From a virus: a stretch of 32,459 nt of DNA. Numbering within the stretch: position 1 is the stretch's first letter; the number at the start of each line of letters is the position of its first letter. Of the stretch, positions 1,898 through 14,629 are shown in pieces. The position numbers were made by a program, and so were the translations under genes. The notes under the pieces were generated by a model. The model was not told the origin of the DNA, did no database searches, and saw only the letters and a program-made list of their open reading frames with translations. The stretch is from IMG/VR virus record IMGVR_UViG_3300005617_000261, positions 1-32,459 of that record. The stretch is one strand, 5' to 3'.

Positions 1898-2161
1898 ATG
1901 TCCCGCGCCGATACTGGATGGCTGCCATCGGGCATGAAGAGCTTTCGCGCTGTGGATGATGACCTTCCATTCGCGAAAGGGCTCTACGTGAGGAGTCCGA
2001 AGTATCCGGGACTGCGAGGACTGACGACGAGCCAGAGCCATCACGTATACGCCGAGGGCTGGGGCGGAAAGAAGGTTGAATTCCACTACGTCATGGTCAC
2101 ATGGGAGGGCTGGAACGGCTCTTCTGTTTCGGTCGAACTCAGCGACCTAGTTTCAGACTGA
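1898..2161 (+). CDS. Small hypothetical protein (87 aa)
   Basis: The frame is open further upstream to 1739, but that part overlaps the preceding gene and gives an Arg-rich, unlikely protein, so I place the start at the ATG at 1898, two bases after the previous stop. The product is small and rich in Trp, Tyr and Gly, with a segment HHVYAEGWGGKKVEFHYVMV that looks like beta strands. No signal peptide, membrane segment or metal motif is visible, and no clear Shine-Dalgarno sequence precedes it. I do not recognise the family. It could be translated by coupling to the upstream gene. Confidence 0.6.
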   Translation: MSRADTGWLPSGMKSFRAVDDDLPFAKGLYVRSPKYPGLRGLTTSQSHHVYAEGWGGKKVEFHYVMVTWEGWNGSSVSVELSDLVSD

Positions 2162-2214
2162 TCCATGTTGCGCGCCTCGCGTCGGCATCGTTCTTGCTGA
2201 CATCCGCCCCATAA

Positions 2215-2237
2215 GCCTGTAGCCTTGTCGGCTATGG
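2215..2237 (+). promoter_or_regulatory. GCCTG-N4-CTTGT-N5-ATGG box before portal gene
   Basis: GCCTG at 2215-2219 is followed after 4 bases by CTTGT at 2224-2228 and after 5 more by the portal ATG at 2234. An almost identical arrangement precedes the protease gene at 12737-12758. Both genes lack a Shine-Dalgarno sequence. The box may be a phage-specific promoter or translation-initiation element, possibly for leaderless messages. This is inference from two copies. Confidence 0.3.
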
Positions 2238-3997
2238 GTTTCTTCTCGACTCTGTCAAGCCTCAATCCATTCTCTCGCGAATCAAGTTCGCCGACCTCCA
2301 ATGCTCTACCCCCGCAAGAGTTAACTCTTGATTCTGCTGCCCAAGAAGCCGAACGGCAACTTCTAGCCATTCAGCCACCTATCGACGTCGAGAGGACGCC
2401 TCGACGGCCTGGCTATTACGAAGAACCCCGGCAACTGCCATACATCGGTGGAGTCATGCGCCCTCAGCAGTGCATGACCACATGGACGGTGCAACGGGCA
2501 CGGGCTGCGCTTGATGCATTGGATGCTGGAACGTTCGCCGAAGCCGCGTTGATGATGGAGGAGATGCTTCGAGACGATGCCGTATATCACGGCTACTCGA
2601 CGCGATCGGGGCGCCTCTTTGGCTTGCCCCAGCGGGTACTTGGAGCGGTCAATGAAGACGGAGCTCCGCGTCGCGGAAGCATGCGGGCGCGGAAGTTGTG
2701 GCAGAAGTATCAGAAGCTGATCTTCCCGCAAGGCTGCAAGCGGGAGATCATGAAGTACCTCTACTTTTTCCGCTTTGCTATCTGCTCGATTACTTGGCTC
2801 AACGTTCCAAATAATGATGACGCGAACGGCCCGGCCTATTGGCGGATCCCACAGTTCAAGGTGTGGCATCCATTCTGGATCCGCTTCATCTTCGATTCAG
2901 ACCCTGACCACGATGGAGGCATCGGAGGCGAGCAGGCCAGCGGGCACTATCAGGTCACGACGTTTAACGAAGGCACGATCGATCTCATCAATGAGAATGC
3001 CCCCGGCAAAGGTCGGTGGGTGCTGTTTCAGGGCGCCGGAATGCGTCCATGGTTCGATGCTTTGATTCGTCCGTTGGCGTCGCCTTGGCTGCGCCGACTG
3101 TACACTCGACGCGACCATGGCCGCTTCGAGGAAAAGCACGGCCTGCCGATTACCATGGTGAAGTTCCCGACCTACTTCGGCAGTGAATCCAGAGAGTGGA
3201 TCATGTTTGAGAACTCTCTACGAACGCTCGGCAGCGAGGGCGTTTTGATGTGCCCGCAGGATAAGGACAATCCAAAAGCTGGGGTCAGTGTCGACTTCGC
3301 CGGGCCTCCGAATGCTGCAGCACTGAATACGTTTGTTGAATCCAAGAAAGAGGAAGATCAAGACATCTATACGCTCTGGCTCGGACAGTCGCTTACGACA
3401 GAGGCCGGGCAGAATGGCGGGAGTCATGCAGCTCTTCTGGGTATGTGGCGCGGTATTGATGATCTAGCAAGAGGCGATTCGTTCTGGATCAGTGACGCGG
3501 AAGTCGAATGGTATGCCACCAAAGAAGGGAAGGCCGTTTGGCATATGATTCCAGGAGACGGACCCATTCGTGAACAGGTGGGCAAGTTCTATGCCTGGTA
3601 CAACTTCGGCGATCCTGACATCGCGCCCCACGATATGATCGATGGCACTCCGGATGCGGATCGCAAAGAAGCGGCCGACCTCGCTAAAATCATGGCGGAG
3701 ACTTCACGCAATAAGGCGCTTGCCCTCAAAGACATGTGCGAAGGAATGGTCAAGCTACAGGAACTGCAGCAGAAGCCAGATCCTGTGTATATGCTTGAGC
3801 AGATCGACATGCAGATTGTCAGGCCAGAAGAGGACGAGATCGCTCAGCCTGGGCTATCAAAGCAACGGCCCGGCATGCTTTCGCTTCCATCTGCTCCGAC
3901 GTTAATGCTTAGCCTTGATGGTACGCATTTCGCCAAGTTCCCAGCCATCGCCCGTCGTTCCATCCTGAAAGCAGCCAAAGGACAGCAGTCATCATGA
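2234..3997 (+). CDS. Portal protein, DUF935 / Mu gp29-like
   Basis: This 587-residue protein is the likely dodecameric portal through which DNA enters the head. The N-terminal 90 residues are polar and low in complexity. The middle includes a MMEEMLRDDAVYHGYSTR segment, and the C-terminal half contains the portal-like stretch LWLGQSLTTEAGQNGGSHAA (around residues 385-404), which resembles the LGQTLTT..G.GS segment of DUF935 portals. A TTG at 2225 is in frame but ATG 2234 is preferred. Neither has a good Shine-Dalgarno sequence. The position ahead of protease and capsid genes supports the call, although an 8-kb island lies between them. No terminase gene is visible upstream. The 3' end overlaps the Dps gene by 4 bases. 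Confidence 0.8.
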   Translation: MGFFSTLSSLNPFSRESSSPTSNALPPQELTLDSAAQEAERQLLAIQPPIDVERTPRRPGYYEEPRQLPYIGGVMRPQQCMTTWTVQRARAALDALDAGTFAEAALMMEEMLRDDAVYHGYSTRSGRLFGLPQRVLGAVNEDGAPRRGSMRARKLWQKYQKLIFPQGCKREIMKYLYFFRFAICSITWLNVPNNDDANGPAYWRIPQFKVWHPFWIRFIFDSDPDHDGGIGGEQASGHYQVTTFNEGTIDLINENAPGKGRWVLFQGAGMRPWFDALIRPLASPWLRRLYTRRDHGRFEEKHGLPITMVKFPTYFGSESREWIMFENSLRTLGSEGVLMCPQDKDNPKAGVSVDFAGPPNAAALNTFVESKKEEDQDIYTLWLGQSLTTEAGQNGGSHAALLGMWRGIDDLARGDSFWISDAEVEWYATKEGKAVWHMIPGDGPIREQVGKFYAWYNFGDPDIAPHDMIDGTPDADRKEAADLAKIMAETSRNKALALKDMCEGMVKLQELQQKPDPVYMLEQIDMQIVRPEEDEIAQPGLSKQRPGMLSLPSAPTLMLSLDGTHFAKFPAIARRSILKAAKGQQSS

Positions 3998-4458
3998 GCC
4001 CGACTCATAACGACCTACCCGAAGAACTCCGCATGGCAATGGTGGCACTGCTGACTGGGCGCGTCATTGATGCCCGCGACCTCTATCTTGCGGCCAAGGT
4101 TGCGCATTGGAACGTTCGCGGGCCGACCTTCGCTCAACTGCACAAACTCTTCGATAAGGTTGCTTCTGCTGCTCTTGAGATCTCCGATGCATTGGCAGAG
4201 ATGGCGTTATCTCTTGGTGGCGCAGTCGACGCCCAAGGCGAGCGTGGAAGTGTTCCGATGATGCCCGTCATTGCTGGCGAGAACTGCAAGGCTTATGTTG
4301 AGGCAATGGCCGACTCAGTCGCTGTCGTACTCGCAGGACTGCGACAGGATGCAGGGACAGCCATGGAGCAAGATGACCTTGTGACCAGCGACCTGTTCAT
4401 CAAGACGGCCGGGCAACTGCAGCATCTGTTGTTTTTGGTTGAGCGAAACGGACGTTAG
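3994..4458 (+). CDS. dps: Dps-like mini-ferritin (ferroxidase and DNA protection)
   Basis: This 154-residue protein has the length and core pattern of Dps: YLAAKVAHWNVRGPTFAQLH followed by LFDKVASAALEISDALAEMA. The four classical ferroxidase ligands are present with E. coli Dps spacing: His38, His50 (+12), Asp65 (+15) and Glu69 (+19), plus Trp39 and Asp54. Dps family members form 12-subunit shells that oxidise Fe(II) with peroxide and often bind DNA. The N-terminal tail here has few basic residues, so nonspecific DNA binding by the tail is doubtful. ATGA overlap with the portal gene implies coupled translation and late expression. Dps inside a virion gene cluster is unusual. The identification is strong; its role in the phage is inferred. 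Confidence 0.88.
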   Translation: MSPTHNDLPEELRMAMVALLTGRVIDARDLYLAAKVAHWNVRGPTFAQLHKLFDKVASAALEISDALAEMALSLGGAVDAQGERGSVPMMPVIAGENCKAYVEAMADSVAVVLAGLRQDAGTAMEQDDLVTSDLFIKTAGQLQHLLFLVERNGR

Positions 4459-4468
4459 GAGGATGGCG

Positions 4469-4684
4469 ATGGATGATCAACTTGAGCAGGGAAGGCAACG
4501 CGTTGGACTAACGATCAATGCCCCAGAGAAACTATCGCAGGGCCGTCCATGGGTTAACAGGGTCGCCATGGATACCGACCCAAAGACCGGCGAAATCCTG
4601 CGCTTTCGCAACGTTGCGCTAGAGCCAAAGATTCAGAACTCAACCCCTACGGCCGAGCACAAAGAACCCCATCGCTCGGAGTAG
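4469..4684 (+). CDS. Small hypothetical protein (71 aa)
   Basis: A perfect AGGAGG at 4457-4462 sits 6 bases before the ATG at 4469, which decides the start. A TTG at 4439 in the same frame would overlap the Dps gene and is less likely. The product is polar and includes INAPEKLSQGRPWVNRVAMD and DPKTGEILRFRNVALEPKI, which suggests a small beta-rich fold. No known domain is recognised. Its 3' end overlaps the convergent lipoprotein gene by 38 bases, which marks the border where the plus-strand structural cluster meets the minus-strand island. Confidence 0.7.
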   Translation: MDDQLEQGRQRVGLTINAPEKLSQGRPWVNRVAMDTDPKTGEILRFRNVALEPKIQNSTPTAEHKEPHRSE

Positions 4685-5453
4685 CGCGAATCCCTAGATT
4701 CATGGGGCCATAGTAGGCCTCTTTGTAGGGGTTCCCCGTCGGATCGCATGAGAACGGCGTGTCTGCCGTGTTCGCCCCTGAAAGCCCCGCGCATCTCGCT
4801 ACGACCGGAAAGTCCCCACACTTTTGTGGGGCTGCCTGCGTATACATCTTAGGACCAAGAGTGCCGTTATAAATCCGATTCTCAGGACCGCATCCGAGAC
4901 GCAACGACTGATCCCAGGTTGCATTCGGGGCTTCCCAATCGCATCGCATAACCGAGCTCGCTGGCCATCCTGTATCTAGGCCATGCGCAGCACTTGCAAA
5001 GAATCCCCACGGCACAGAAGCGCAGGCTGCCTCAGGAATGCTGAGGATTGCCGGATTGGACCATCCAGCAGCACAGAGACCTGGGCACATATTCGAATTG
5101 CACTGCCCGGGGCAGGCGTGGAGTTTTGCACTGAGAACCCAGCCTTGACCGCTCGAGCATCCAGCCGCAGGCCCGCGAGGCTGCCCAGGGTTCCATGCAT
5201 AGGGGTCTTTCATGTCAGCTTGAACCCCTCGCATATCATCGGCACCCATGCCGCCATCGACATCAAATCCACCCTCTGATCCAGCCATGCAATAGCCATC
5301 GTTAGAAGATGGATCCGAGCCGATTGGCGTTTCACAGTGCTGATCCGCACGGCAATCTGCATTGCCATGACAAACAACGCGAGGTGGCGCAGTTGATGAA
5401 CTTAACGAGCATGAAGTCAGGAGCGAGGCGAACAGAAGCCAAGCGAAGCGCAT
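4647..5453 (-). CDS. Cys-rich secreted lipoprotein (268 aa)
   Basis: The N-terminus MRFAWLLFASLLTSC is a lipoprotein signal peptide with lipobox LTSC, so Cys15 would be lipidated and the protein exported. The mature part begins with a Cys-rich segment (CHGNADCRADQHCE, then a further Cys) and an Asp/Gly/Met-rich spacer, followed by many more Cys that could form disulfides in the periplasm or at the surface. This style resembles Myxococcota-type secreted proteins, though I know no specific family. A GGAG lies 6 bases before the ATG. It is the last gene of the minus-strand block. A role at the host envelope, such as superinfection exclusion, is conceivable but not shown. Confidence 0.72.
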   Translation of the reverse strand: MRFAWLLFASLLTSCSLSSSTAPPRVVCHGNADCRADQHCETPIGSDPSSNDGYCMAGSEGGFDVDGGMGADDMRGVQADMKDPYAWNPGQPRGPAAGCSSGQGWVLSAKLHACPGQCNSNMCPGLCAAGWSNPAILSIPEAACASVPWGFFASAAHGLDTGWPASSVMRCDWEAPNATWDQSLRLGCGPENRIYNGTLGPKMYTQAAPQKCGDFPVVARCAGLSGANTADTPFSCDPTGNPYKEAYYGPMNLGIRATPSDGVLCARP

Positions 5454-5480
5454 GTGGTTCTCCGGGTAGATGTTAGGGGC

Positions 5481-5915
5481 TTACTGACACTTACATTTCT
5501 TTGAGTTTGCAGCATTGAGAACAGTCTGAGCCTTCGAGCATTCTTGCTTCATGCTTTGACAGATATCGCTTCGAAGGCCCTCCTCTCCGAGCGACTGAAA
5601 GATGCGCTGACAGGATGTGGCAAGGCTAGCGCATTCAGAATTCAGATCGGAAAATCTCTCACATAGGCCCACGCAAGGATCTGGCGCATGCATTGCGGCC
5701 TCCTCTTGCTTAGGCGCCGGAGGTGGGATGAATGGCTCATCCTTCGGTGCAAGTTCTGAAACCCTGCGGAGTTCGTTCTTTGGTCGCGGTGGCTTGATCA
5801 ACTCCTTGGTTAGATCTTCGCTCTGCTCAATGCCAAGCGATTGCTTGATGGCCTTCCGTTCCCAGGAGAAGCAACCAGACGTGCAGAATAGAACCAAGAG
5901 AACCGTGCTTCTCAT
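5481..5915 (-). CDS. Small Cys-rich lipoprotein (144 aa)
   Basis: The signal peptide MRSTVLLVLFCTSGC has a lipobox-like TSGC ending at Cys15. The next 65 residues are Lys/Glu/Pro-rich (KPPRPKNELRR, PPPAPKQEEA), as in periplasm-spanning linkers, and the C-terminal part holds seven or more Cys (CVGLCERF, ECASLATSCQ, CQSMKQECS, CKCQ). The layout of a lipid anchor, Pro-rich stalk and Cys-stabilised helical domain resembles an outer-spanin or surface lipoprotein, but no inner spanin or holin is seen nearby, so I do not call it a spanin. The start overlaps the upstream gene by 4 bases (ATGA). Confidence 0.68.
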   Translation of the reverse strand: MRSTVLLVLFCTSGCFSWERKAIKQSLGIEQSEDLTKELIKPPRPKNELRRVSELAPKDEPFIPPPAPKQEEAAMHAPDPCVGLCERFSDLNSECASLATSCQRIFQSLGEEGLRSDICQSMKQECSKAQTVLNAANSKKCKCQ

Positions 5916-6607
5916 TTGGGTTCATCCGGACCGATAAAGATCTTCCATCCATGGGATTTTCTGGCGCGTGCAACCCATAATCGCATCACTACATCATCCC
6001 ACAGGAGATTCTTATAGACACCGCCGCCTTGATTTAATTCGTAAACAGGTTGCTTGCTGTGATCGGCCTCTAATGTTCCGACCTGTTTCAAGGTGCCAAT
6101 TCGATTCTCATCTCCGATGCACGGATGCGTTACGGTCTTGCCAGCATGGACTTGCTCTAGGGCCCATGCGAAGTCGCGCTCAATTGGTGACTGAATCGCG
6201 CGTTCAACGGAGTCCGCGAGAGAATCAAGTTGCGCTGAATAGCCAGCAGCGACCAACTTCGCGCCGATTTCATCCAAGATGCGGCCAAGCCCGTTGCTTT
6301 CAACTACCTGCCGCTGTGTCTGCGCATTGGCTCGTACTGTTTCCTGCCTGGCGCTCTCGATTTCTCGGAGCAACTTCTCATTATCAGCCCGCAAGACAGA
6401 GCATGACACAATACCTGCCATGTGATTTCGCCAGGTCCAGATATCCAAGTCATAGCCACAGATCTCACATCGCCTTGTCAACTCGATGTCGAGCGCTTGA
6501 GCGATCCATCTAAGAAATTCAGCGCGTCCATGTTCTCCGGCAAGCGCATCAGGATCAAGGTGCAACATCTTGGCTGCTAAACGTATCGACAACGATGGCT
6601 TGTTCAT
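5912..6607 (-). CDS. Zinc-finger/coiled-coil protein with possible Tad2/DUF2829-like C-terminus
   Basis: The 231-residue product has three parts. Residues 47-70 contain CEICGYDLDIW...H...C, a possible zinc site. Residues 72-105 form a coiled coil. Residues 144-213 (ERDFAWALEQVHAGKTVTHP, then GGGVYKNLLWDDVVMRLW) resemble DUF2829, the family of the Thoeris inhibitor Tad2 that sequesters cyclic ADP-ribose signals: an amphipathic helix with xxAGKxV, then a Gly-rich turn and a W-D-containing helix. The match is by eye and partial, and other phage proteins share such small folds. GAGGAG precedes the ATG. Presence in the same operon as an Acb2-like gene makes the idea attractive. Confidence 0.6.
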   Translation of the reverse strand: MNKPSLSIRLAAKMLHLDPDALAGEHGRAEFLRWIAQALDIELTRRCEICGYDLDIWTWRNHMAGIVSCSVLRADNEKLLREIESARQETVRANAQTQRQVVESNGLGRILDEIGAKLVAAGYSAQLDSLADSVERAIQSPIERDFAWALEQVHAGKTVTHPCIGDENRIGTLKQVGTLEADHSKQPVYELNQGGGVYKNLLWDDVVMRLWVARARKSHGWKIFIGPDEPK

Positions 6608-6641
6608 CTTCGCTCCTCCATCTGAAAGAAACTGCCGCCCT

Positions 6642-6854
6642 TCATCGGACCGGGGCGGCGCGGTGCAATGGTGTTATCCCTGGGGGTGGAACGTGGCCCC
6701 TGTCGCAGGTTCTCTCTGCGCTCGATTCCATCGCTTCATGCGTTTGCCGACATCGCAAGCAGGCTTTCCGTGGTGATTCATGCGGTACAATCCGGACCGG
6801 ACCCCGCACATCTCGGGGCACCACGCCCACGGAAAGCCGGCCATTGCTATTCAT
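6642..6854 (-). CDS. Small hypothetical protein (70 aa), uncertain
   Basis: The only reason to call this 70-residue frame is its ATGA overlap with the stop of the upstream gene, the junction type used throughout this operon, and that it fills an otherwise empty 243-bp gap. It contains CLRCRQTHE and a later Cys, which could be a small metal site, but its composition (Arg, Pro, Val) is also what a chance frame would give. No family is recognised. If it is not a gene, the gap holds only the ribosome binding site of the next gene. Confidence 0.4.
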   Translation of the reverse strand: MNSNGRLSVGVVPRDVRGPVRIVPHESPRKACLRCRQTHEAMESSAERTCDRGHVPPPGITPLHRAAPVR

Positions 6855-7171
6855 CTCTCCCGAACTCCGCTTGAATGGCCGTTGTGAATAGGATCCAAGT
6901 GCGGGTTCTCATGAAGCGTATCGATACCGAGATGATTTAGGCGAGACCTTACCGTGAAAGTTTGTTCGGTATTTCCGCCCTTGATGAAATCTACGCCTCC
7001 GCGCAGCCACTGACAAAACTCAACGACGGCTTTCAATTGCCCGTCTTGATTTGTCGCATTCACTAGTTCCAGATGCTTCTTGATGCAGACCAGCATCTGC
7101 TCGGTGAACTGCTCAACATTGCAGAGTTCGATGGCACCCTGCAGCCAATAGCAAAACTCAATCGCCTTCAT
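6851..7171 (-). CDS. Small protein with duplicated FCxWLxG helical unit
   Basis: The 106-residue product contains two related units: EFCYWLQGAIELCNVEQFTE at 5-24 continuing to HLEL at about 36, and EFCQWLRGGVDFIKGGNTEQ at 51-70 continuing to LNHL at about 81. The FCxWLxG...TEQ...L pattern is one I recall as a short single-copy phage protein of unknown function, so this looks like a tandem duplication. A GAGGAG sits 5 bases before the ATG. The C-terminal 25 residues are His/Asn-rich. No catalytic motif is visible. Confidence 0.7.
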   Translation of the reverse strand: MKAIEFCYWLQGAIELCNVEQFTEQMLVCIKKHLELVNATNQDGQLKAVVEFCQWLRGGVDFIKGGNTEQTFTVRSRLNHLGIDTLHENPHLDPIHNGHSSGVRER

Positions 7172-7192
7172 GTTCGCTCCTCGTTTCTTCTG

Positions 7193-7753
7193 TTAGCCCC
7201 AAGTGCCCTTGTGGTGAGTGGGCCGTTTGGTGCCGTCTTCTTTTTCAATGCCTGCCGTTGTGCCCAGCATTGGCCCCTTGATTGCCGGAGGTCGCACATG
7301 CACTTCCCAATGCACGCGCAACTCCATCGGTGAATCGTCGCTTACTCCGATGGTGCGCAGGCTCTGCAATTTAAGTACGCCTTCGCGCTTGGCTTCCTTG
7401 TCGTAGTGGCTTTCGTTTGGCCACACTTGCCGGGTAACCGTCTCTGCGCCATCGGTCACAACGATCGATATGATCTTGGCACTCCGAAGAACCGCGACCT
7501 GTTCGTCATGAGAGAACCCCAGCATGTGCTTAACCGGGAAGACGGCGCGAAGGGAGTTGTCCGTATACTCAATTCGCAGCAGTTCGGGAAACTGCTTTGC
7601 GTTCTCGATGTCTCCAGAGCATACCAAGAAAACCAGATTGGAGAGTTTCGCTGCCTCTGATTTCTGCGGAGCCCGTGTATTATTTGGAGATGCGCAGATT
7701 GCCGCCCATGCTCCATCTCGAGGCTCGGTATAGGACTCAACAGGATCACTCAT
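7193..7753 (-). CDS. Hypothetical protein (186 aa)
   Basis: A strong AAGGAG precedes the ATG at 7753. The central part alternates hydrophobic and polar residues (NLVFLVCSGD, LLRIEYTDNSLRAVFPVKHM, IISIVVTDGAETVTRQVWP), suggesting a mixed beta fold, and the C-terminus is Lys/Gly/His-rich and probably disordered. Two bases separate the start from the previous stop. I do not recognise a family, and there is no signal peptide, membrane span or obvious active site. It is a member of the minus-strand operon. Confidence 0.72.
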   Translation of the reverse strand: MSDPVESYTEPRDGAWAAICASPNNTRAPQKSEAAKLSNLVFLVCSGDIENAKQFPELLRIEYTDNSLRAVFPVKHMLGFSHDEQVAVLRSAKIISIVVTDGAETVTRQVWPNESHYDKEAKREGVLKLQSLRTIGVSDDSPMELRVHWEVHVRPPAIKGPMLGTTAGIEKEDGTKRPTHHKGTWG

Positions 7754-7755
7754 AT

Positions 7756-7953
7756 CTATCTCCTTAGCGTAATCGCCTCGCCCTCTTCAAGGGCTGATTT
7801 CTCAATCGGCGCTTTGTTCCATCCTGGCCCGGTTGGGCGCCATAGCCAGAGGCCGCGTGCATGCTCTGTTTCGAAGGCGAAGATGCAGCGACCTCCATCG
7901 GCTGTGTTTCGTCCGTCGCGGTAGAGGGTGCCGAAGTAGCGATGATCTTCCAT
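7756..7953 (-). CDS. Small hypothetical protein (65 aa)
   Basis: I prefer the ATG at 7953, which follows the upstream stop by 22 bases. An earlier ATG at 8040 would overlap the Acb2-like gene by 65 bases. The product has aromatic stretches (HRYFGTLYRDGR, RCIFAFETEHARGLWLWRPT) typical of a compact beta-sheet domain and ends in an acidic then basic tail. No convincing Shine-Dalgarno sequence precedes either start. The family is not recognised. Confidence 0.6.
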   Translation of the reverse strand: MEDHRYFGTLYRDGRNTADGGRCIFAFETEHARGLWLWRPTGPGWNKAPIEKSALEEGEAITLRR

Positions 7954-7975
7954 GGTGGCCGCCGCGATTAATCGA

Positions 7976-8197
7976 TCAGAGTTCAGTGATGTTATTTTCG
8001 CATTGAATCGCCATCGCTCGTTTAGCGTAGAAACTAGCATCCTGCATATGGGTCCTCACGATTGCCATCTCGCGACCCGACTTATCACAGACGCCTTCGA
8101 GTTGATCGAGCGCTAAACTGAATATCTCAGCAATGCGAGTTGCTTTCTGTTTTCCCTGATCGTTAAGCATGTGGACGTTAAACTCTTCGCGAATCAT
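7976..8197 (-). CDS. Acb2/Tad1-family cyclic-nucleotide sponge (anti-CBASS / anti-Thoeris)
   Basis: The 73-residue product is nearly all helical and fits the Acb2_Tad1 hairpin pattern: FNVHMLNDQGKQKATRIAEI (residues 6-25), then LALDQLEGVCDKSGREMAIV, RTHMQDASFYAKRAMA. Family members match F.xH.L...G..K...I...F..L...L followed by GRE.A..RT.L..A.F.AK.A. Acb2 proteins form oligomers that bind cyclic di- and trinucleotide alarmones and block CBASS; Tad1 relatives also bind gcADPR and block Thoeris. The start at 8197 is set by GGAGG five bases upstream. The same frame is open back to 8356 but that extension has unrelated composition. Ligand specificity cannot be read here. Confidence 0.75.
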   Translation of the reverse strand: MIREEFNVHMLNDQGKQKATRIAEIFSLALDQLEGVCDKSGREMAIVRTHMQDASFYAKRAMAIQCENNITEL

Positions 8198-8352
8198 TGG
8201 AGCCTCCATGGTTGTTGTTTGCCCGTTCCCGCTCGATACGGTCGTACACGGTGCCGGTACATGACCCAAAAGGATGAGCGGCGTCATAAACAAATGCGGC
8301 TCAGGGCTCAAGCGGGTATTCACCATCGGATGCTGTCTTTCACGATGGCAAG

Positions 8353-8673
8353 TCATGGCTTATTGGATGCTTTGGTGCTGGCGAAGTCAGCCAGAATCTG
8401 ACCACAAGCATCCATTAGGTCTTGCACTGATTTCGTATCTTGAAAAGTAACATTAACCGTTTGACCTCCTCTGTTTTGAGGAATCAACCTAAGCCCTCCC
8501 CATGCTTCTTTTCGGGGCGATTCCACCTTCGCAATTCTGCACTCGGACACCAATACGCAAATATCGCCATTTGGATTTTCTTGGCTAGGAGGGAAAACCT
8601 CGACATCCTTGCAGATTGTCAACCCGTCGATCAATTCTGCACGAGCAGGGAGCGCAGCATCTTTATTGCTCAT
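8353..8673 (-). CDS. Hypothetical protein (106 aa)
   Basis: The product has an acidic, Pro-containing N-terminal half (DVEVFPPSQENPNGDICVLV), a basic patch (RIAKVESPRKEAWGG), then a beta-like stretch QTVNVTFQDTKSVQD and a short C-terminal helix. The start is 4 bases after the previous stop. No family, signal peptide or metal motif is recognised. About 155 bases separate its stop from the Acb2-like start, the longest gap in this half of the operon; it contains an imperfect inverted repeat near 8238-8264 (GGTC...GACC with GTAC arms) that may be a processing or regulatory site. Confidence 0.7.
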   Translation of the reverse strand: MSNKDAALPARAELIDGLTICKDVEVFPPSQENPNGDICVLVSECRIAKVESPRKEAWGGLRLIPQNRGGQTVNVTFQDTKSVQDLMDACGQILADFASTKASNKP

Positions 8674-8677
8674 CGGC

Positions 8678-9610
8678 CTAATCCTTCACAATGGTGAGTC
8701 GTGGTTTATCTTCGAGTTCTTTGGCTGCATCGATCGCTTCTTGCTGCTGTGCCTGCAACTTCGCAACCTGCTCCGCTTCAATGCGTCGGATCTCTGCCGT
8801 TCGCTCAGGGCATAGCCCCTCGATCAACATCTTGAGATCCTGCCGCAGTCCGCCAAGCATCGCGTTCAACTGCGCGTGATGTTGCTGCATTGCTCGGAAG
8901 TCCAGCTGCGAGATCGGACGCATGATTAAGCCGTCTGCGATTGCGAGCCGTCCGGTGCGCTGGTCTTGCCGAACGGGCGGCATTGCTCCGATTCTGGATT
9001 CGCAGGCGGTGGCTAGCATCTGCCAGAGCCAGATCGCCGATCCGAGCACATACGGAGATGCTCCGCAGAGACGAGTCAAATCTAAATCCACCCTGCCGCA
9101 ATATCGACAGCGGGGCGTTTCGCCATCTGCTCCCTCGAATAGATGGGACGGATGCATGAGCCCATGAATTGGATCGTCTGGCGTCTCATCTCCGGCACAC
9201 CATCTACACTTTATGGCCGCATCTGGGATGATATGCCCGAGTCCAACATAGGGATCATGTTCGCCGCAGTTGATGCAAACCGCACTTCCATGTCGTTTAT
9301 CGCACCATCGAAGGTCGTGTTTTTCGCAGGATTTAGGCGCCTCTTCGATCCTCGCTTTGAGCAGATGCCCCACCTCATGCCAGATCAGACGTCGCTTCCC
9401 CTCTTGGCTATCTGTTGGTACTCCATCGGTAGCACCAAGCCGAATCAGCGCGAAGGCCACAACATCGGCGCGTGGTAGTTCGCAGGGGATGTCATCGCAC
9501 AGATCAGCGAATCCACGGAAGACGAAAGCGAAGATCGCCGTTTCTGGGGTTTCCTGACTGCCGACAGATCCAGCGGCGAAGGTGAATGCTTGCTTGGCGG
9601 TGGTGATCAT
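8678..9610 (-). CDS. Zinc-finger protein with HEVGH motif (310 aa)
   Basis: This is the largest product of the minus-strand block. Residues 76-85 read IWHEVGHLLK, an HExxH motif as in zinc metallopeptidases, with a downstream Cys-rich region: CINC at 112-115, CRWC at 135-138, CRYC at 168-171 and Cys182, which could form two zinc knuckles. The C-terminal 100 residues form a long helix with a QAQQQEAIDAAKELED coiled coil. An HExxH can occur by chance and no clear third zinc ligand was identified, so peptidase activity is only a possibility. ATGA overlap joins it to the upstream gene. Confidence 0.7.
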   Translation of the reverse strand: MITTAKQAFTFAAGSVGSQETPETAIFAFVFRGFADLCDDIPCELPRADVVAFALIRLGATDGVPTDSQEGKRRLIWHEVGHLLKARIEEAPKSCEKHDLRWCDKRHGSAVCINCGEHDPYVGLGHIIPDAAIKCRWCAGDETPDDPIHGLMHPSHLFEGADGETPRCRYCGRVDLDLTRLCGASPYVLGSAIWLWQMLATACESRIGAMPPVRQDQRTGRLAIADGLIMRPISQLDFRAMQQHHAQLNAMLGGLRQDLKMLIEGLCPERTAEIRRIEAEQVAKLQAQQQEAIDAAKELEDKPRLTIVKD

Positions 9611-9951
9611 CGGCCAGACCTCAGTGTAAAGAGTTGCTTCCTCTCAATCATCCGGATCTCGTAGCCTTCCATTGCGAACCCTCTCAGTGCTTCCATCTCC
9701 GCCTCTTGGCAGCCGTACGTGAGTTCCTTAAACCCAGCATCCTCATGAAGCCTTGCGATAACCATACGCCAGTCTTTGACTGTCTTTGGTGTATCAAGAT
9801 CAAAAAGTTTCTCCGCCGATTCCGCAGGGACCCTGTGTCGTTTTGCGATCGACTCGATCGAATCAGCCACCCGATTAGCCACTGCCGCCCCAACCTTGCG
9901 GGCTGCATCCATGATATCCGGTATGCCCTCAGGTGGCTTGATTTCGATCAC
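9607..9951 (-). CDS. Hypothetical protein (114 aa)
   Basis: The protein is predicted mostly helical: IMDAARKVGAAVANRVADSI in the first 35 residues, then a polar middle part (RVPAESAEKLFDLDTP) and a C-terminal WRMVIARLHEDAGFKEL with EMEALRGFAMEGYE. Nothing indicates export or catalysis. ATGA overlaps link it to both neighbours, so all three are probably translated together. The family is not recognised. Confidence 0.7.
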   Translation of the reverse strand: MIEIKPPEGIPDIMDAARKVGAAVANRVADSIESIAKRHRVPAESAEKLFDLDTPKTVKDWRMVIARLHEDAGFKELTYGCQEAEMEALRGFAMEGYEIRMIERKQLFTLRSGR

Positions 9952-10193
9952 GAGGTCGCACCTTTCAGGGTGTCAGCCACCCCATGCGCAATCGCTTCGC
10001 TCAACCCGATGAAGACTTCGCTTTTGACTTCAACAGGTGGTTTGGCATGCGCGGCCATCGCGGCTTGCAGCTTCTGCGGATCGAGCCTGCCAAGTGATTT
10101 CATAATCCGCTCAAGGCGGATTATCCGGTAGGTCAGAAACGCCACAGTAAGCACGAACCCGATGGAGACGATCAGATCAGGATGAGTGCTCAT
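9948..10193 (-). CDS. Small single-pass membrane protein (81 aa)
   Basis: Residues 7-23 (LIVSIGFVLTVAFLTYR) form one hydrophobic segment followed by basic residues (RIIRLERIMK), which predicts an N-out, C-in single-pass inner membrane protein with a cytoplasmic helical tail of about 50 residues. It overlaps both neighbours by 4 bases. A small membrane protein in a phage operon may be a holin-like, inner-spanin-like or immunity protein, but there is no lysin or other lysis gene beside it to decide. Confidence 0.68.
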   Translation of the reverse strand: MSTHPDLIVSIGFVLTVAFLTYRIIRLERIMKSLGRLDPQKLQAAMAAHAKPPVEVKSEVFIGLSEAIAHGVADTLKGATS

Positions 10194-10423
10194 GGGATCC
10201 TGTAAGCCGTCACAGTCTTGACCGCCTCGGGGACGATTATTTCGCCCTTGATGATCACGATGCCCTCAGTGAGAGCTTCGTCCCAATCAGGCATGACACC
10301 GAGGATCTGCAGACCGTATAGACGGCCACTCGGCGCCAGTGCCTTCTCGAGTTCGCCGCGATTCATCGGCTCGATATAGCAGCCGCCTTTGTCTTTCTGA
10401 CTGAAGACGAAATAGATGCTCAT
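10190..10423 (-). CDS. Small hypothetical protein (77 aa)
   Basis: The product starts MSIYFVFSQKDKGGCYIEP and continues with a helix (RGELEKALAPSG) and hydrophobic strands (LYGLQILGVMP, GIVIIKGEIIVPEAVK). It appears to be a small alpha/beta cytoplasmic domain. A GGAGG lies upstream of the ATG at 10423, and 42 bases separate it from the previous stop. No family is recognised. Confidence 0.68.
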   Translation of the reverse strand: MSIYFVFSQKDKGGCYIEPMNRGELEKALAPSGRLYGLQILGVMPDWDEALTEGIVIIKGEIIVPEAVKTVTAYRIP

Positions 10424-10465
10424 GACTTCATCCTCCCGTGCATCTCCGTTAGTTCCACTGCAGGC

Positions 10466-10687
10466 TCATGAGCCAATAATCCCTCGGATTCTGGTTTCCA
10501 GTGATGCCTTGCTCATTATCACGAAACAATCCGGAGACCCTTCAAGGTTGCGAGCACGAAGGCCATCACATACACCGCATGCAATGGCTGCATCTTCTTC
10601 ATGGCTAGAGGATCCCTCATGTTGAACCGCAGCCCCTGCAGCCACCAGTGCGAGAGAACGCAAATAGGCGCGATGTTCTCGGCTCAT
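10466..10687 (-). CDS. Small hypothetical protein (73 aa)
   Basis: A helical N-terminus (REHRAYLRSLALVAAGAAVQ) precedes a His/Ser/Glu stretch and CGVCDGLRARNLEG, one CxxC pair that could bind metal with the later Cys. ATGA overlap with the upstream stop supports translation. The function is unknown and the short length limits prediction. Confidence 0.62.
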   Translation of the reverse strand: MSREHRAYLRSLALVAAGAAVQHEGSSSHEEDAAIACGVCDGLRARNLEGSPDCFVIMSKASLETRIRGIIGS

Positions 10688-11052
10688 GACCGCAGAATCC
10701 CCGCTTCCACGATCTCCTTCCAGCCATCAAGCATCTCCTTAGCGAGACTCGGCTTGATATGCAGTTTGTGGTCACTGACCATGATTGCAAACTGCATCGC
10801 AGCCGCTCCGGAACGGGGAATCACTGATGCCATGAGCCCGCGCGGTGCGGGTCGCAAATCCCACAATTCCGCGGATAGTCCCATGCCCTTCTGAACATCG
10901 GTGCCTGCGCCGTAGAAGTTGCGCAGCCAAGCAACGACGACGTCTCTGATTTTGTCGTGCTTGGCTTGCAGTTGCATCGCGCGTTCTTGGGCTGGGGTGG
11001 TAGTCGGGGTCTTGTCGTTGGGCTTCTGGTTCTGCTTGTTGTCGTTGGACAT
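10684..11052 (-). CDS. Hypothetical protein (122 aa)
   Basis: I choose ATG 11052, preceded by AAGGAG about 10 bases upstream; an ATG at 11106 in frame would overlap the previous gene. The first 25 residues (NDNKQNQKPNDKTPTTTPA) are low-complexity and disordered. The remainder has helix AKHDKIRDVVVAWLRNFYG, a beta-like middle (LMASVIPRSGAAAMQFAIMV) and a C-terminal helix. The family is not recognised. Confidence 0.68.
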   Translation of the reverse strand: MSNDNKQNQKPNDKTPTTTPAQERAMQLQAKHDKIRDVVVAWLRNFYGAGTDVQKGMGLSAELWDLRPAPRGLMASVIPRSGAAAMQFAIMVSDHKLHIKPSLAKEMLDGWKEIVEAGILRS

Positions 11053-11074
11053 TGGTCGGTTACTCCTTGGTTTC

Positions 11075-11278
11075 TTAGCGGCTCGCCAACATGCGGGCGG
11101 CTGCATATTTGATCGAATCTCGATGATGCTCGCGATTCTGTGGTGCGCCTCGATCGAGATAATTCAAAGCCTCGGCAATGAATCCTCGGATCTCATCGTC
11201 ATCCCGAAAGCCCTTGGCATCTAAGATGCCCTCGATTGAGACATGGCCAGTGTCTGACTGATCAAGATCGGGATGCAT
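11075..11278 (-). CDS. Small hypothetical protein (67 aa)
   Basis: The product is acidic at the N-terminus (MHPDLDQSDTGHVSIEG) and helical after residue 25 (DDDEIRGFIAEALNYLDRG, then HRDSIKYAAARML). Its ATG directly abuts the previous stop. It has no Cys and no membrane segment. The family is not recognised. Confidence 0.62.
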   Translation of the reverse strand: MHPDLDQSDTGHVSIEGILDAKGFRDDDEIRGFIAEALNYLDRGAPQNREHHRDSIKYAAARMLASR

Positions 11279-11524
11279 TTAGTTCTGTCCCTTCGCCGCA
11301 TCGTCCGCCTGCTCTGCCTTCATCTGCGCTTTGTTTTCTCCCCAGACCGTGAAGATCGCGTCGTTGACCTTGATCCGTAGGACCGGATCGCCGTCATCTC
11401 CTACGATCATCGTGAGGTCTTTCACGAGTTCATCGCCGGGATAAAGGAGGTTCATTGCATCGAGGCGATCGACGATACGACGCATGCGGGCGCGGATCTC
11501 GGAGAATGGAAGTTGAGCGCTCAC
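11279..11524 (-). CDS. Small hypothetical protein (81 aa), GTG start
   Basis: A GTG at 11524 gives a GTGA overlap with the preceding stop, the same 4-base junction used elsewhere in this operon, so I prefer it to the ATG at 11593, which lies deep in the upstream gene. The product begins SAQLPFSEIRARMRRIVDRL, then has a beta-like stretch (VKDLTMIVGDDGDPVLRIKV, FTVWGENKA) and an acidic tail. The family is not recognised. Confidence 0.65.
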   Translation of the reverse strand: MSAQLPFSEIRARMRRIVDRLDAMNLLYPGDELVKDLTMIVGDDGDPVLRIKVNDAIFTVWGENKAQMKAEQADDAAKGQN

Positions 11525-11697
11525 GAATCCACCGTCAAGCCATGCCGATCGACACAGAAGACGCAGACCCACCGACTGCCTACCTTGCGCCACTTCTTAC
11601 GCGATATGCGCTCACCGCCGCAATCGCTGGGAGGCTCGTAGAAGCGCCGCAACTTCTTGCACCGTGGGCACTTCTTGCGTAGGTCGTGCGTGCTCAT
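11521..11697 (-). CDS. Zinc-ribbon microprotein (58 aa)
   Basis: The ATG at 11697 forms an ATGA overlap with the preceding stop; an ATG at 11742 would overlap that gene. The protein has CPRCKKLRRF near residue 10 and a second pair CVFC near residue 47, a classic two-knuckle zinc ribbon, with a basic middle part (ERISRKKWRKVGSRW). It could bind nucleic acid or a host protein. No specific family is recognised. Confidence 0.65.
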   Translation of the reverse strand: MSTHDLRKKCPRCKKLRRFYEPPSDCGGERISRKKWRKVGSRWVCVFCVDRHGLTVDS

Positions 11698-11891
11698 CCT
11701 GCCACCTCCATTCGCATCTGTGCCATATCGATCGGATGCCAAAACATGGCGCGGTCAACTCTGTCGTTTAGTTGTCTTGCGATATCCGAGATGCTTCGAT
11801 TTTGGACGCGAATTCCAGCTGCGCGCAAAGTTTCATCGAAGGCCATGAAGATGTCGGCATGCACTTCGATCATGGCGTCTCGGATGGTCAT
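11694..11891 (-). CDS. Small hypothetical protein (65 aa)
   Basis: The product appears fully helical: TIRDAMIEVHADIFMAFDET, a short turn, then ISDIARQLNDRVDRAMFW. It shares 4-base ATGA overlaps with both neighbours. The composition is ordinary for a cytoplasmic protein and no motif is recognised. A helix-turn-helix cannot be claimed. Confidence 0.62.
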   Translation of the reverse strand: MTIRDAMIEVHADIFMAFDETLRAAGIRVQNRSISDIARQLNDRVDRAMFWHPIDMAQMRMEVAG

Positions 11892-12442
11892 GACTCACTC
11901 CCCTTCGAACGATCTCGGCAAGTCGGACAGATCCACCGCGGATTACCATCCGGAGCGGTTGCATAAACCCAACTGACTGACCGCGCTAGCTCAGCGTTCT
12001 GCAAGCCAGAGCGACAGCCTACGCAGTAGACATAGGAATCGAGCATCTCTTGCGTCGCAGAGAGACCCCGGATCTCACCTCTCACCCACGGAGGCCCGGG
12101 GAATTTTCGCGGCAGAAGATCAATGTTGATTTTGCCGGTTTCGAAGGCATAGGAAACGATTGGCTGAAAGTCATCATTGCCCAAGGCAATTGTCATGGTC
12201 TCGACCATGCGATGCCTCTCTTCGTCGGTCAGGTCTCCATCCTCCGGATTAACGAGGAGGTTTTGACCTTCAAACGGTCTCATCGCGCGAAGACAAATGA
12301 CTCCAGCAAGACCACGGCGAAGCTCAAAGCCATCCTCATCGATCGCCGGTCCAAGAATGCGAAGACATTCGCGCAACCGTTCGACCTCAGAGTCAGGACG
12401 GCTTTCGCAAAACATCAGGGATGCTGGCGCTTTTGTGTTCAT
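11888..12442 (-). CDS. Hypothetical protein with C-terminal zinc ribbon (184 aa)
   Basis: ATG 12442 makes an ATGA overlap with the upstream stop and is preferred over an ATG at 12523 whose extension is Gly/Arg-rich. Residues 18-110 are a mixed alpha/beta region with acidic segments (NPEDGDLTDEERHR). The C-terminus has CVGC at 140-143 and CPTC at 172-175 separated by 28 residues, a zinc-ribbon arrangement. The function is unknown. Confidence 0.68.
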   Translation of the reverse strand: MNTKAPASLMFCESRPDSEVERLRECLRILGPAIDEDGFELRRGLAGVICLRAMRPFEGQNLLVNPEDGDLTDEERHRMVETMTIALGNDDFQPIVSYAFETGKINIDLLPRKFPGPPWVRGEIRGLSATQEMLDSYVYCVGCRSGLQNAELARSVSWVYATAPDGNPRWICPTCRDRSKGSES

Positions 12443-12648
12443 TTCTCGGTCTCCGCCGGCCACGTAACCCCCTCGCCCCTCACGAACTCCGCTGCTCCCT
12501 TGTCCCGTGCGACTTCGGCCCAAGTGATATTCAGTCCAGTGCGATGCCTATAGGCTCTGCAGGCTTGGTTGTAAGCGTCCAGTTGTTCTTCCGTTTTGAA
12601 CGTGACCGGGGGTTGTCGAAGTCTTGATCGTTTCTTCTGTGTGGCCAT
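12439..12648 (-). CDS. Small basic protein, first gene of minus-strand operon (69 aa)
   Basis: The product starts with a basic segment (ATQKKRSRLRQPPVTFKTEE), contains a helix (QLDAYNQACRAYRHRTG) and ends acidic. It is the promoter-proximal gene of the 8-kb minus-strand block. No Shine-Dalgarno sequence precedes the ATG. If the proposed promoter is right, the transcript would begin only a few bases before the start codon. The basic N-terminus might bind nucleic acid, but no known fold is recognised. Confidence 0.6.
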   Translation of the reverse strand: MATQKKRSRLRQPPVTFKTEEQLDAYNQACRAYRHRTGLNITWAEVARDKGAAEFVRGEGVTWPAETEK

Positions 12649-12659
12649 GCTGGATTCAC

Positions 12660-12688
12660 ACGCTACATACCATGCACTCCTGAGTCAA
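12660..12688 (-). promoter_or_regulatory. Putative promoter of the minus-strand operon
   Basis: On the minus strand, TTGACT (12688-12683) matches the sigma70 -35 consensus at 5 of 6 positions. After 17 bases, TAGCGT (12665-12660) is a weak -10. Transcription would start near 12652, about 4 bases before the first ATG. It is the only clear -35 candidate in the 106-bp divergent gap. Confidence 0.35.
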
Positions 12689-12736
12689 GTTGCATCTTAT
12701 GCGTGGGCTATAGGTTCTTGTTAGTTGCTGCGGTTG

Positions 12737-12758
12737 GCCTGAGTCTTGTAACCCATGG
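12737..12758 (+). promoter_or_regulatory. GCCTG-N3-CTTGT-N5-ATGG box before protease gene
   Basis: GCCTG (12737-12741), then CTTGT (12745-12749), then 5 bases and the start ATGG at 12755 repeat the arrangement before the portal gene at 2215-2237, with one base less in the first spacer. No Shine-Dalgarno sequence precedes this ATG. It may be a shared promoter or start-site element that drives the split parts of the structural cluster. Confidence 0.3.
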
Positions 12759-14629
12759 CCGACGGCGCAATCGCGCTTCAACCTGCAACACTAGGACTCG
12801 CCCCCGGAAACGGGTACGGCTTGGCCTATCTTGCGGTATCGCTCGAAGCGTCGAGCGGCGTACGGCTTGGCGATGATGGCCTACCTACCGAGATCTTGCT
12901 ATGGCGGGATGGTCGGAATCAAACCACCAAAGGTACTTTCAACCTTACCGACCGTGCGCGAAAGCTCGTCCTAGACGACTGGACCGCACGGTTCGGCGGC
13001 TTGGTTTCTCCGAGCGGAGATCCGCCGGGTGCGTTTGATTACGATCATGATGAGTTCAATGACAACCTGCCCGGCTATGAAAAGATCGCGGCAGGCTGCT
13101 TTGACCTCGCGCTTGAAGGTAAAGACCTCTGGCTAACCAAGTGCAAGTTCACCGCACGAGCAGCCGCTCAGATCCTCGCCAAAGAAAAGCGCAGCACCTC
13201 AGGGGCCTTCTACTTCGACCCGAAGACGGGCGAGTTCACCGGGCTTCTGAATGTCGCTCTAACAAACCTGCCAGCCACTTATAAGCAGCCGCTTCTCAAT
13301 AACGCCAAGTCGCAGACAGGGCTATCGATGGTCCTGACTCCGCCGGATGGTCCACAGGATGAGCGACGCGTGATTGTGCAGGTGCCTGCGATCGTTCTCT
13401 CTGGCGACCTTTCGCCGAAAGACGAGCAGGCCTTGCGCGGCTGCATCGATTTCCTTTCGCGAGGGAATCTCGAATCGGCCGGTTGGGCTCTCCTTGGCGA
13501 AAAGCCCACCACTTCCGACTCTACTCCGACGCCAGCCGTCGTTGAATCTGTCACCGCGGCGCCCGTCGTCGCAACCTCTCAATCATCGGAGACTGCCTCA
13601 ATGGGCACTTACAGCGACCCGAATTTTTCGGCGACCTATCACAGTTACATGCTGCGGTACATGGCTTCCTGCGACATGGAATCCATGCTGACGGCGATCT
13701 ACATGAACGCCGAACTTCCCACCATGTCGAAGGCGATGGACCTCGGCATGTACTGCAAGGCGCTCGCCGACAACATCACGCACTGTGCGGCGGCCATGGC
13801 CGAGTGCATGACCGACATGGGCGACGATGACTCGATGGATGAGGCGTCGCTGGCTTCGGTCATGAGCAAGACCCCTGAGGCGCTCAAGCCGGATGTTGAT
13901 AAGGCATTGGCTGCATGCAAGGCGGCGAAGTGCGGCGGGCTGCTGCAGAAGGCGCACAAAGCAGCGCTGGCTGCTGTTGGCGCGAAGGTCTTCGATAAGA
14001 CTTCGATCGTGGCCCTGTCTGCGCTACCGACCGAAGTCGCGACTCTCAGGGACGAAGCCGCGCTGGCGAAGCGTGTCATGGCGAAGCTTGGCGTCTCGAA
14101 ACTGGCGGAAGTGATCCCAACTCTCATTGATCGCGATCACATGCTCGAAGAGGCGAAGACGAACGCTCTTTCGGCTCAGTCGCTTGCAGGGACCGACGTG
14201 AAGGTTGCTCGCGCCACGAAGATCAAAGAGATGCTGGCAGCGAAGTTGATCTCCCCGGCGGATGCCGTGCTGGCCGAGGGTCGTGATCCTGCCGATCCGG
14301 TTGCCGAACCAAAGGCCGATCCGTATACGCTGGCTGAACTCGATGAGATCGAGCGGCGGGCCAAACTTCGCCTGAGCAGCACAACCCAGAGCACGAGCGT
14401 GGTTGCGGCCGGAATCGTGGTTGCGCCTGTCCCGCCTGCGGCTCCGGGTCCTGCGCAAGGCGCAGTCGAGCCTGGCAAGTCAAGTGCATCCAATGGAGAT
14501 GATGACTTCGCCAAGTTCAAGGCGATGAATCCAGACATTACCGACGATAACAAACTTCGGGAGATTCTCCGGAATTCTACCGAAACCGTTTCTCAGCGGC
14601 TGGGCCAGAGCTCGGCAGTTACTCAGTAA
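12755..14629 (+). CDS. Mu gpI-like prohead protease fused to scaffold
   Basis: The N-terminal domain (about 1-180) has the Mu I-like pattern: a Gly-rich strand, then FDYDH at 94-98, which carries the probable catalytic His98, and STSGAFYFDPKTGEFTGLLN through VALTNLPA (147-174), matching the family's P.TG...GLL.VALTN.PA stretch. A Thr/Pro/Ser linker (251-282) leads to an Ala/Lys/Glu-rich helical C-terminal region of about 340 residues expected to serve as scaffold. The protease matures the prohead by cleaving scaffold and perhaps capsid. Position just before decoration and capsid genes agrees. Which Ser is catalytic I cannot decide by eye. Confidence 0.82.
   Translation: MADGAIALQPATLGLAPGNGYGLAYLAVSLEASSGVRLGDDGLPTEILLWRDGRNQTTKGTFNLTDRARKLVLDDWTARFGGLVSPSGDPPGAFDYDHDEFNDNLPGYEKIAAGCFDLALEGKDLWLTKCKFTARAAAQILAKEKRSTSGAFYFDPKTGEFTGLLNVALTNLPATYKQPLLNNAKSQTGLSMVLTPPDGPQDERRVIVQVPAIVLSGDLSPKDEQALRGCIDFLSRGNLESAGWALLGEKPTTSDSTPTPAVVESVTAAPVVATSQSSETASMGTYSDPNFSATYHSYMLRYMASCDMESMLTAIYMNAELPTMSKAMDLGMYCKALADNITHCAAAMAECMTDMGDDDSMDEASLASVMSKTPEALKPDVDKALAACKAAKCGGLLQKAHKAALAAVGAKVFDKTSIVALSALPTEVATLRDEAALAKRVMAKLGVSKLAEVIPTLIDRDHMLEEAKTNALSAQSLAGTDVKVARATKIKEMLAAKLISPADAVLAEGRDPADPVAEPKADPYTLAELDEIERRAKLRLSSTTQSTSVVAAGIVVAPVPPAAPGPAQGAVEPGKSSASNGDDDFAKFKAMNPDITDDNKLREILRNSTETVSQRLGQSSAVTQ
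13601..14629 (+). CDS. Nested scaffold protein from internal start (Mu Z-like)
   Basis: An in-frame ATG at 13601 (Met283 of the protease) directly follows the low-complexity linker and is preceded by GGAG at 13588-13591, spaced 9 bases. Initiation here would release a free scaffold of 342 residues lacking the protease domain. Mu makes its scaffold gpZ from inside gene I in the same way. The helical, Ala-rich composition suits a scaffold. The start is inferred, not proven. Confidence 0.55.
   Translation: MGTYSDPNFSATYHSYMLRYMASCDMESMLTAIYMNAELPTMSKAMDLGMYCKALADNITHCAAAMAECMTDMGDDDSMDEASLASVMSKTPEALKPDVDKALAACKAAKCGGLLQKAHKAALAAVGAKVFDKTSIVALSALPTEVATLRDEAALAKRVMAKLGVSKLAEVIPTLIDRDHMLEEAKTNALSAQSLAGTDVKVARATKIKEMLAAKLISPADAVLAEGRDPADPVAEPKADPYTLAELDEIERRAKLRLSSTTQSTSVVAAGIVVAPVPPAAPGPAQGAVEPGKSSASNGDDDFAKFKAMNPDITDDNKLREILRNSTETVSQRLGQSSAVTQ

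Follow-up and report, generated by a model that had tools for sequence, protein, structure and literature searches.

Dps proteins encoded by phages are already known. Lactobacillus myophages carry them (PMC6669764), as do Gratiaviridae and other gut phages (PMC8008677), and they have been interpreted in terms of host tolerance of oxidative stress (PMC8008677, PMC6669764). Together with the Dps of Kuravirus/Privateer and of Streptomyces phages, these come from tailed phages and belong to phrog_3636, as does the Dps considered here, which is encoded in the window, the whole stretch of 32,459 nucleotides of IMG/VR record IMGVR_UViG_3300005617_000261. In the isolates phiEco32, BUCT695, Coruscant, Comrade, S-SRM01 and BS162P1, the Dps gene, unlike that of the window, has no annotated portal or head gene next to it, and INPHARED searches found no cultivable phage with a portal-adjacent Dps. 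In Privateer, mass spectrometry detected Dps with virions purified on CsCl, and the same paper describes ten virion-associated proteins as verified (PMC7881722). The proteomics of SU10 gave 6 peptides of Dps, in a set that also contained some clearly non-structural proteins (PMC4281155). In both phages the Dps gene lies outside the head cassette, that of SU10 being a middle gene. On the side of the host, infection by phage YerA41 induces dps and catalase (PMC7354516).

Two other systems are comparable. The encapsulins (e.g. Myxococcus EncA with EncB/EncC), as outlined in PMC9321382 and PMC6668986, have a ferritin-like protein co-encoded with an HK97-type shell for iron defence; unlike them, the window comes from a tailed, uncultivated phage with a portal, and what is meant here is a resemblance only. 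The polyvalent and MuF-type virion-delivered proteins likewise have a portal-to-capsid gene position and domain fusions, with an ADP-ribosyltransferase neighbour as in one locus described below (L074); the main text of the polyvalent-protein survey contains no Dps or ferritin (PMC5512222). The literature search, its scope not reaching most subscription journals, found no paper describing a Dps linked to the portal or placed in the head cassette, and the recurrent head-cassette position of Dps appears undescribed in the literature covered.

The Dps of the window

The identity as Dps, proposed in the preliminary description from the letters alone, is borne out by profile searches (Table 1): the product matches Pfam Ferritin (PF00210) with an E-value of 2.5e-11, over the family cut-off, and phrog_3636 with 9.3e-16, and the closest solved structure by phmmer is Salmonella Dps 3ak8 (1.6e-16). 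Judged by these scores, the family matches are far beyond chance. Against NCBIfam NF006975, the equivalog of E. coli-type Dps, the product reaches 88.5 bits with a curated cut-off of 114, and it is therefore a divergent Dps outside that equivalog. The four classical ferroxidase ligands that had been noticed at Dps spacing align with the residues of Salmonella Dps that are its ferroxidase ligands, and all 73 Dps of the alignment, bacterial and phage, share them. D54 (E. coli D67), also present here, is conserved in only part of the phage Dps. From the ligands, Fe(II) oxidation by the window Dps is predicted.

Table 1. Features at the portal-Dps junction of the window
Feature	Position	Strand	Basis or details
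Portal protein gene, Mu type	2234..3997	+	PF06074 (Portal_Mu) E 7.4e-22; 60-61% identical to L002 portal
AAAGGA, Shine-Dalgarno-like, ~11 nt upstream of Dps start	3977..3982	+	sequence
ATGA: Dps ATG (3994-3996) overlapping portal stop TGA (3995-3997)	3994..3997	+	sequence
Dps mini-ferritin gene	3994..4458	+	154 aa, 16.5 kDa; ligands H38, H50, D65, E69
GGAGG, Shine-Dalgarno-like, at Dps end, ahead of ATG 4469	4458..4462	+	sequence
Small ORF, 71 aa, homologue directly after portal in L002	4469..4684	+	local alignment

Structure prediction, suggested in the preliminary description, gave a model of the Dps fold with a pLDDT of 97.3, in which the four-helix bundle is predicted as in Dps structures; over 153 residues, its superposition on Brucella Dps 3ge4 has Z 23.2 and an rmsd of 1.3. 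With the bacterial Dps of Salmonella/E. coli and Agrobacterium (1o9r), the likeness lies in the fold (Z 22-23, rmsd 1.3), the four ligands, a conserved Trp and the length, with an identity of 25-33% to those structures; among the bacterial Dps of the tree described below, the identity does not exceed 43%. A dodecamer would be expected. Unlike the bacterial Dps, that of the window is encoded in a phage head operon, has no basic N-terminal tail (its N-terminus is MSPTHNDLPEELRM), and has a shorter B-C loop, of 26 residues as compared with 29 in each of the 21 bacterial Dps examined, in which the model predicts no BC helix; the helix is present in the control model of another phage-locus Dps (L072), both being predictions only. 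Thus, of the "complete" Dps described before, the ligands stand, while the protein lacks the basic tail and, as modelled, the short BC helix. The protein is acidic (pI 5.0, net charge -7). Because of this acidity and the absence of the tail, DNA protection through direct binding is not favoured; it is noted that the structure title of Agrobacterium Dps 1o9r refers to DNA protection without binding.

The junction with the portal gene

The overlap of the Dps gene with the portal gene through ATGA, reported before, is seen in the window, with the upstream gene matching Portal_Mu. The start of the latter is more likely ATG 2234 than TTG 2225, based on the alignment with the portal of L002. In this nearest relative (L002/L003), the portal gene and the next ORF share an ATGA overlap, with no Dps between them, and no ferritin match was found in the L002/L003 records (92 kb + 37 kb). 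The small ORF that follows the Dps gene in the window aligns with this post-portal ORF of L002 with a local score of 75, the maximum in 1000 shuffles being 53. Since the portal gene of L002 overlaps the homologous small ORF directly, the Dps gene of the window is, by this comparison, a precise insert at the 3' junction of the portal gene, for which a gain in the window lineage is a simpler reading than a loss in L002. Moreover, as the nearest relative is without Dps, the protein is not essential to a head of this kind. At its C-terminus, the portal of L002 is extended by ~75 aa relative to that of the window. The portal alignment query (A2) returned only the two relatives already known.

No sigma-70-like promoter was found at positions 1900-5000 of the window (shuffle mean 1.6; a weak test), and there is thus no sign, at this weak level, of a promoter of the Dps gene's own. 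Recent acquisition judged by composition is unsupported, the GC and GC3 of the Dps gene (0.566 and 0.594) resembling those of the portal gene (0.556 and 0.614). Host contamination is ruled out, as the Dps gene overlaps a phage portal gene and is flanked by two genes whose L002 counterparts are direct neighbours. Note also that ~8 kb of minus-strand genes (4647-12648) lie between the portal/Dps cluster and the protease and major capsid protein (MCP) genes; among them are two lipoprotein-like ORFs (4647-5453 and 5481-5915), and a homologous lipoprotein-like gene is at the same place in L002.

Dps beside head genes of other phages

The single-sequence query (P0001) against viral and genome contigs confirmed no relative, and an alignment query was needed. 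With the Dps alignment (A3), 80 viral loci were retrieved from IMG/VR, which were pooled with an earlier retrieval into 44 clusters, and the neighbouring genes were annotated by PHROGs and family searches across the records. In about 20 of the 44 clusters the Dps gene lies in or by head genes, of several unrelated portal or capsid families; the other clusters include many with a short contig or without a portal match, so that an overall head-gene fraction is not quotable. The survey of portal-Dps neighbours that had been proposed thus finds the neighbourhood recurring in other phages with unrelated head families.

The Dps gene is placed directly after the portal gene, or one small gene away from it, behind a phrog_113 portal in L034 (the phrog_113/Portal_Mu family, shared with the window), behind the T7-like connector phrog_332 in L019, where the next gene product matches a PHROG with the name protease and the MCP comes after it, behind phrog_104/64 portals in L022 and L036 (the match of the latter is weak, 0.0056, but it is 42% identical to the L022 portal), and behind phrog_776 portals in eight clusters. 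Other arrangements occur too. In L017 (phrog_533) the Dps gene comes after those for the portal and, next, a minor head protein, and before an unassigned ORF and then the MCP; this minor head protein (L017:7900-9810) has a weak internal intein-splicing match (PF14890), below its cut-off. In L018, L032 and L035 (phrog_113/Portal_Mu) the Dps gene is on the opposite strand, with the portal gene on one side and, at least in L018, the MCP on the other, and a scan with portals of this type gave 5 loci, with Dps in the three query loci only. In L068 (8440-10351) Dps lies directly 3' of a T4-like MCP gene, and in L040 after a protein with portal/protease-family matches. A PF04860 search gave one further portal beyond the phrog_776 records, that of L023, in which Dps forms the N-terminal domain of a protein of 1413 aa (10001-14242), ~8 kb after the portal, in a polyvalent-protein-like region. 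Dps genes far from the portal are found in L008 (~91 kb), L065 (27 kb) and L053 (16 kb). A rough test of the portal-Dps distance, made on 10 phage types with the window left aside, had a combined p of 0.003, which is indicative only, the distances having been rounded by hand and the phage types picked by the author.

The portal-based survey used seven phrog_776 portals from Dps-bearing contigs as the query and was limited to the best 80 of 558 loci, a sample biased toward query-like portals. Among these best 80, the Dps HMM places a Dps just downstream in 69 of 73 informative loci; the other 4 have 1500 nt or more of sequence there and yet no Dps, and 7 further loci were uninformative. The distance from the portal stop to the Dps start, as inferred, ranges from -1 to 62 nt (20 nt or less in 61/69). 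H38, H50 and D65 are present in all 69, and E69 in 68, over 57 distinct sequences with a median net charge of -11 across the 69. In 25 of the 69, the Dps is the N-terminal domain of a longer protein with one homologous C-terminal region, which is ~240-610 aa long in these 25 loci (within L199-L260); a DUF5824 match was seen in the L046 fusion. The gene after portal-Dps in L074 (10473-13781) has an Alt-like ADP-ribosyltransferase domain (PF03496, 2.8e-37; phrog_802), and the Alt protein of T4 is virion-injected. The isolates DSL-LC01 and Pumpernickel, with portals 65-68% identical, have other genes at the post-portal site.

With phrog_104-type portals the occurrence is sporadic, Dps being found at 5 of the 63 loci that were informative (6 in total), and the post-portal slot of the other loci holds different small ORFs or head genes; a frequent occupant, seen in L292, L293, L303, L306, L330 and L336, is a small ORF with a P-loop (AGGPxxGKST-like, then GTDEL).

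A quickly built tree of 73 Dps places the window Dps on a long branch among bacterial-type Dps, and 7 of 8 phrog_776 Dps form a supported group. The head-cassette label changes 13 times on this tree, with just 2 changes forced by strongly supported branches. A single origin of the head-cassette Dps is unsupported on these counts, and the tree suggests that more than one origin is likely.

Possible roles of the head-operon Dps

The identity of the Dps, the ATGA overlap, the insertion site, the recurrence by unrelated head genes and the conservation of the ligands are solid. Based on the genes and their order, the reading that we favour, at about an even chance, is that the window Dps is a head-operon ferroxidase acting against iron and peroxide and possibly carried by the particle. 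An acidic, tail-less ferroxidase of the Dps type would be expressed from the head operon in translational coupling to the portal; it would most likely oxidise Fe(II) with H2O2 or O2, as the ligands suggest, and this oxidation would limit hydroxyl-radical damage to the phage DNA during head assembly and filling, and Dps may be associated with the particle in at least some phages of this arrangement. Late expression at structural level would be expected from the operon position only, and packaging of Dps in the particle may occur. The virion reading stays alive because Dps of other phages has been reported in virion proteomics (PMC7881722, PMC4281155). Counted against the favoured reading are that the Dps genes of Privateer and SU10 are not head-cassette genes and that the SU10 set held non-structural proteins. 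A folded Dps dodecamer (~9 nm), moreover, could not get through a portal channel, which is also counted against the favoured reading, as are the missing Dps in the nearest relative, the other small genes at the phrog_104-type junction and the Dps genes far from the portal elsewhere. A bolder proposal is that several unrelated tailed-phage lineages independently built a Dps ferroxidase into the head cassette, as a particle-associated, encapsulin-like antioxidant that would protect the packaged or incoming genome; we put this forward tentatively, as a doubtful possibility.

Two rivals to the head-operon ferroxidase are serious. The first is that Dps is a late-infection scavenger of the cytosol only, where the head operon just means strong late expression, replicating DNA and the failing host are protected and nothing is packaged. 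We consider this somewhat unlikely. It agrees with the retained ferroxidase ligands, with the acidic, tail-less protein, for which no cargo signal is known, with the published readings of phage Dps (PMC8008677, PMC6669764) and with the induction of host dps and catalase by YerA41 (PMC7354516). A cytosolic role alone, however, leaves unexplained the bias to portal-near head genes over tail or lysis genes, the 25 Dps fusions, and the presence of Dps with purified Privateer virions. The second is that the post-portal junction is a permissive slot (a moron) tolerating inserts, with Dps as one passenger and its position functionally meaningless. The sporadic occurrence at phrog_104-type loci (5/63), the other small ORFs in the same slot, the absence from L002 and the opposite-strand islets of L018, L032 and L035 all speak for it, but the near-fixation of Dps in the phrog_776 lineage (69/73 among the best 80 of 558, with the query-like bias), with ligands kept over 57 distinct sequences, makes it improbable. 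Finally, a Dps-fold neck or scaffold part free of iron chemistry, to which the neighbouring portal, scaffold and capsid genes and the lack of a BC helix in the window model might point, is very improbable, because the invariant ferroxidase ligands would be needless for a purely structural part, and the relative L002 makes heads without Dps.

Phage Dps has so far been interpreted as an aid to the host under oxidative stress. The recurrence by head genes, the near-constant post-portal place in one lineage and the kept ferroxidase site would link iron and peroxide chemistry with the assembly or survival of the particle, to which the encapsulins, HK97-fold shells with ferritin-like cargo, may offer a parallel. 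A testable question that arises is whether Dps is inside the virion and whether the genome is protected by it. The arrangement hints that some phages may build or ship a defence against iron and peroxide together with their heads.
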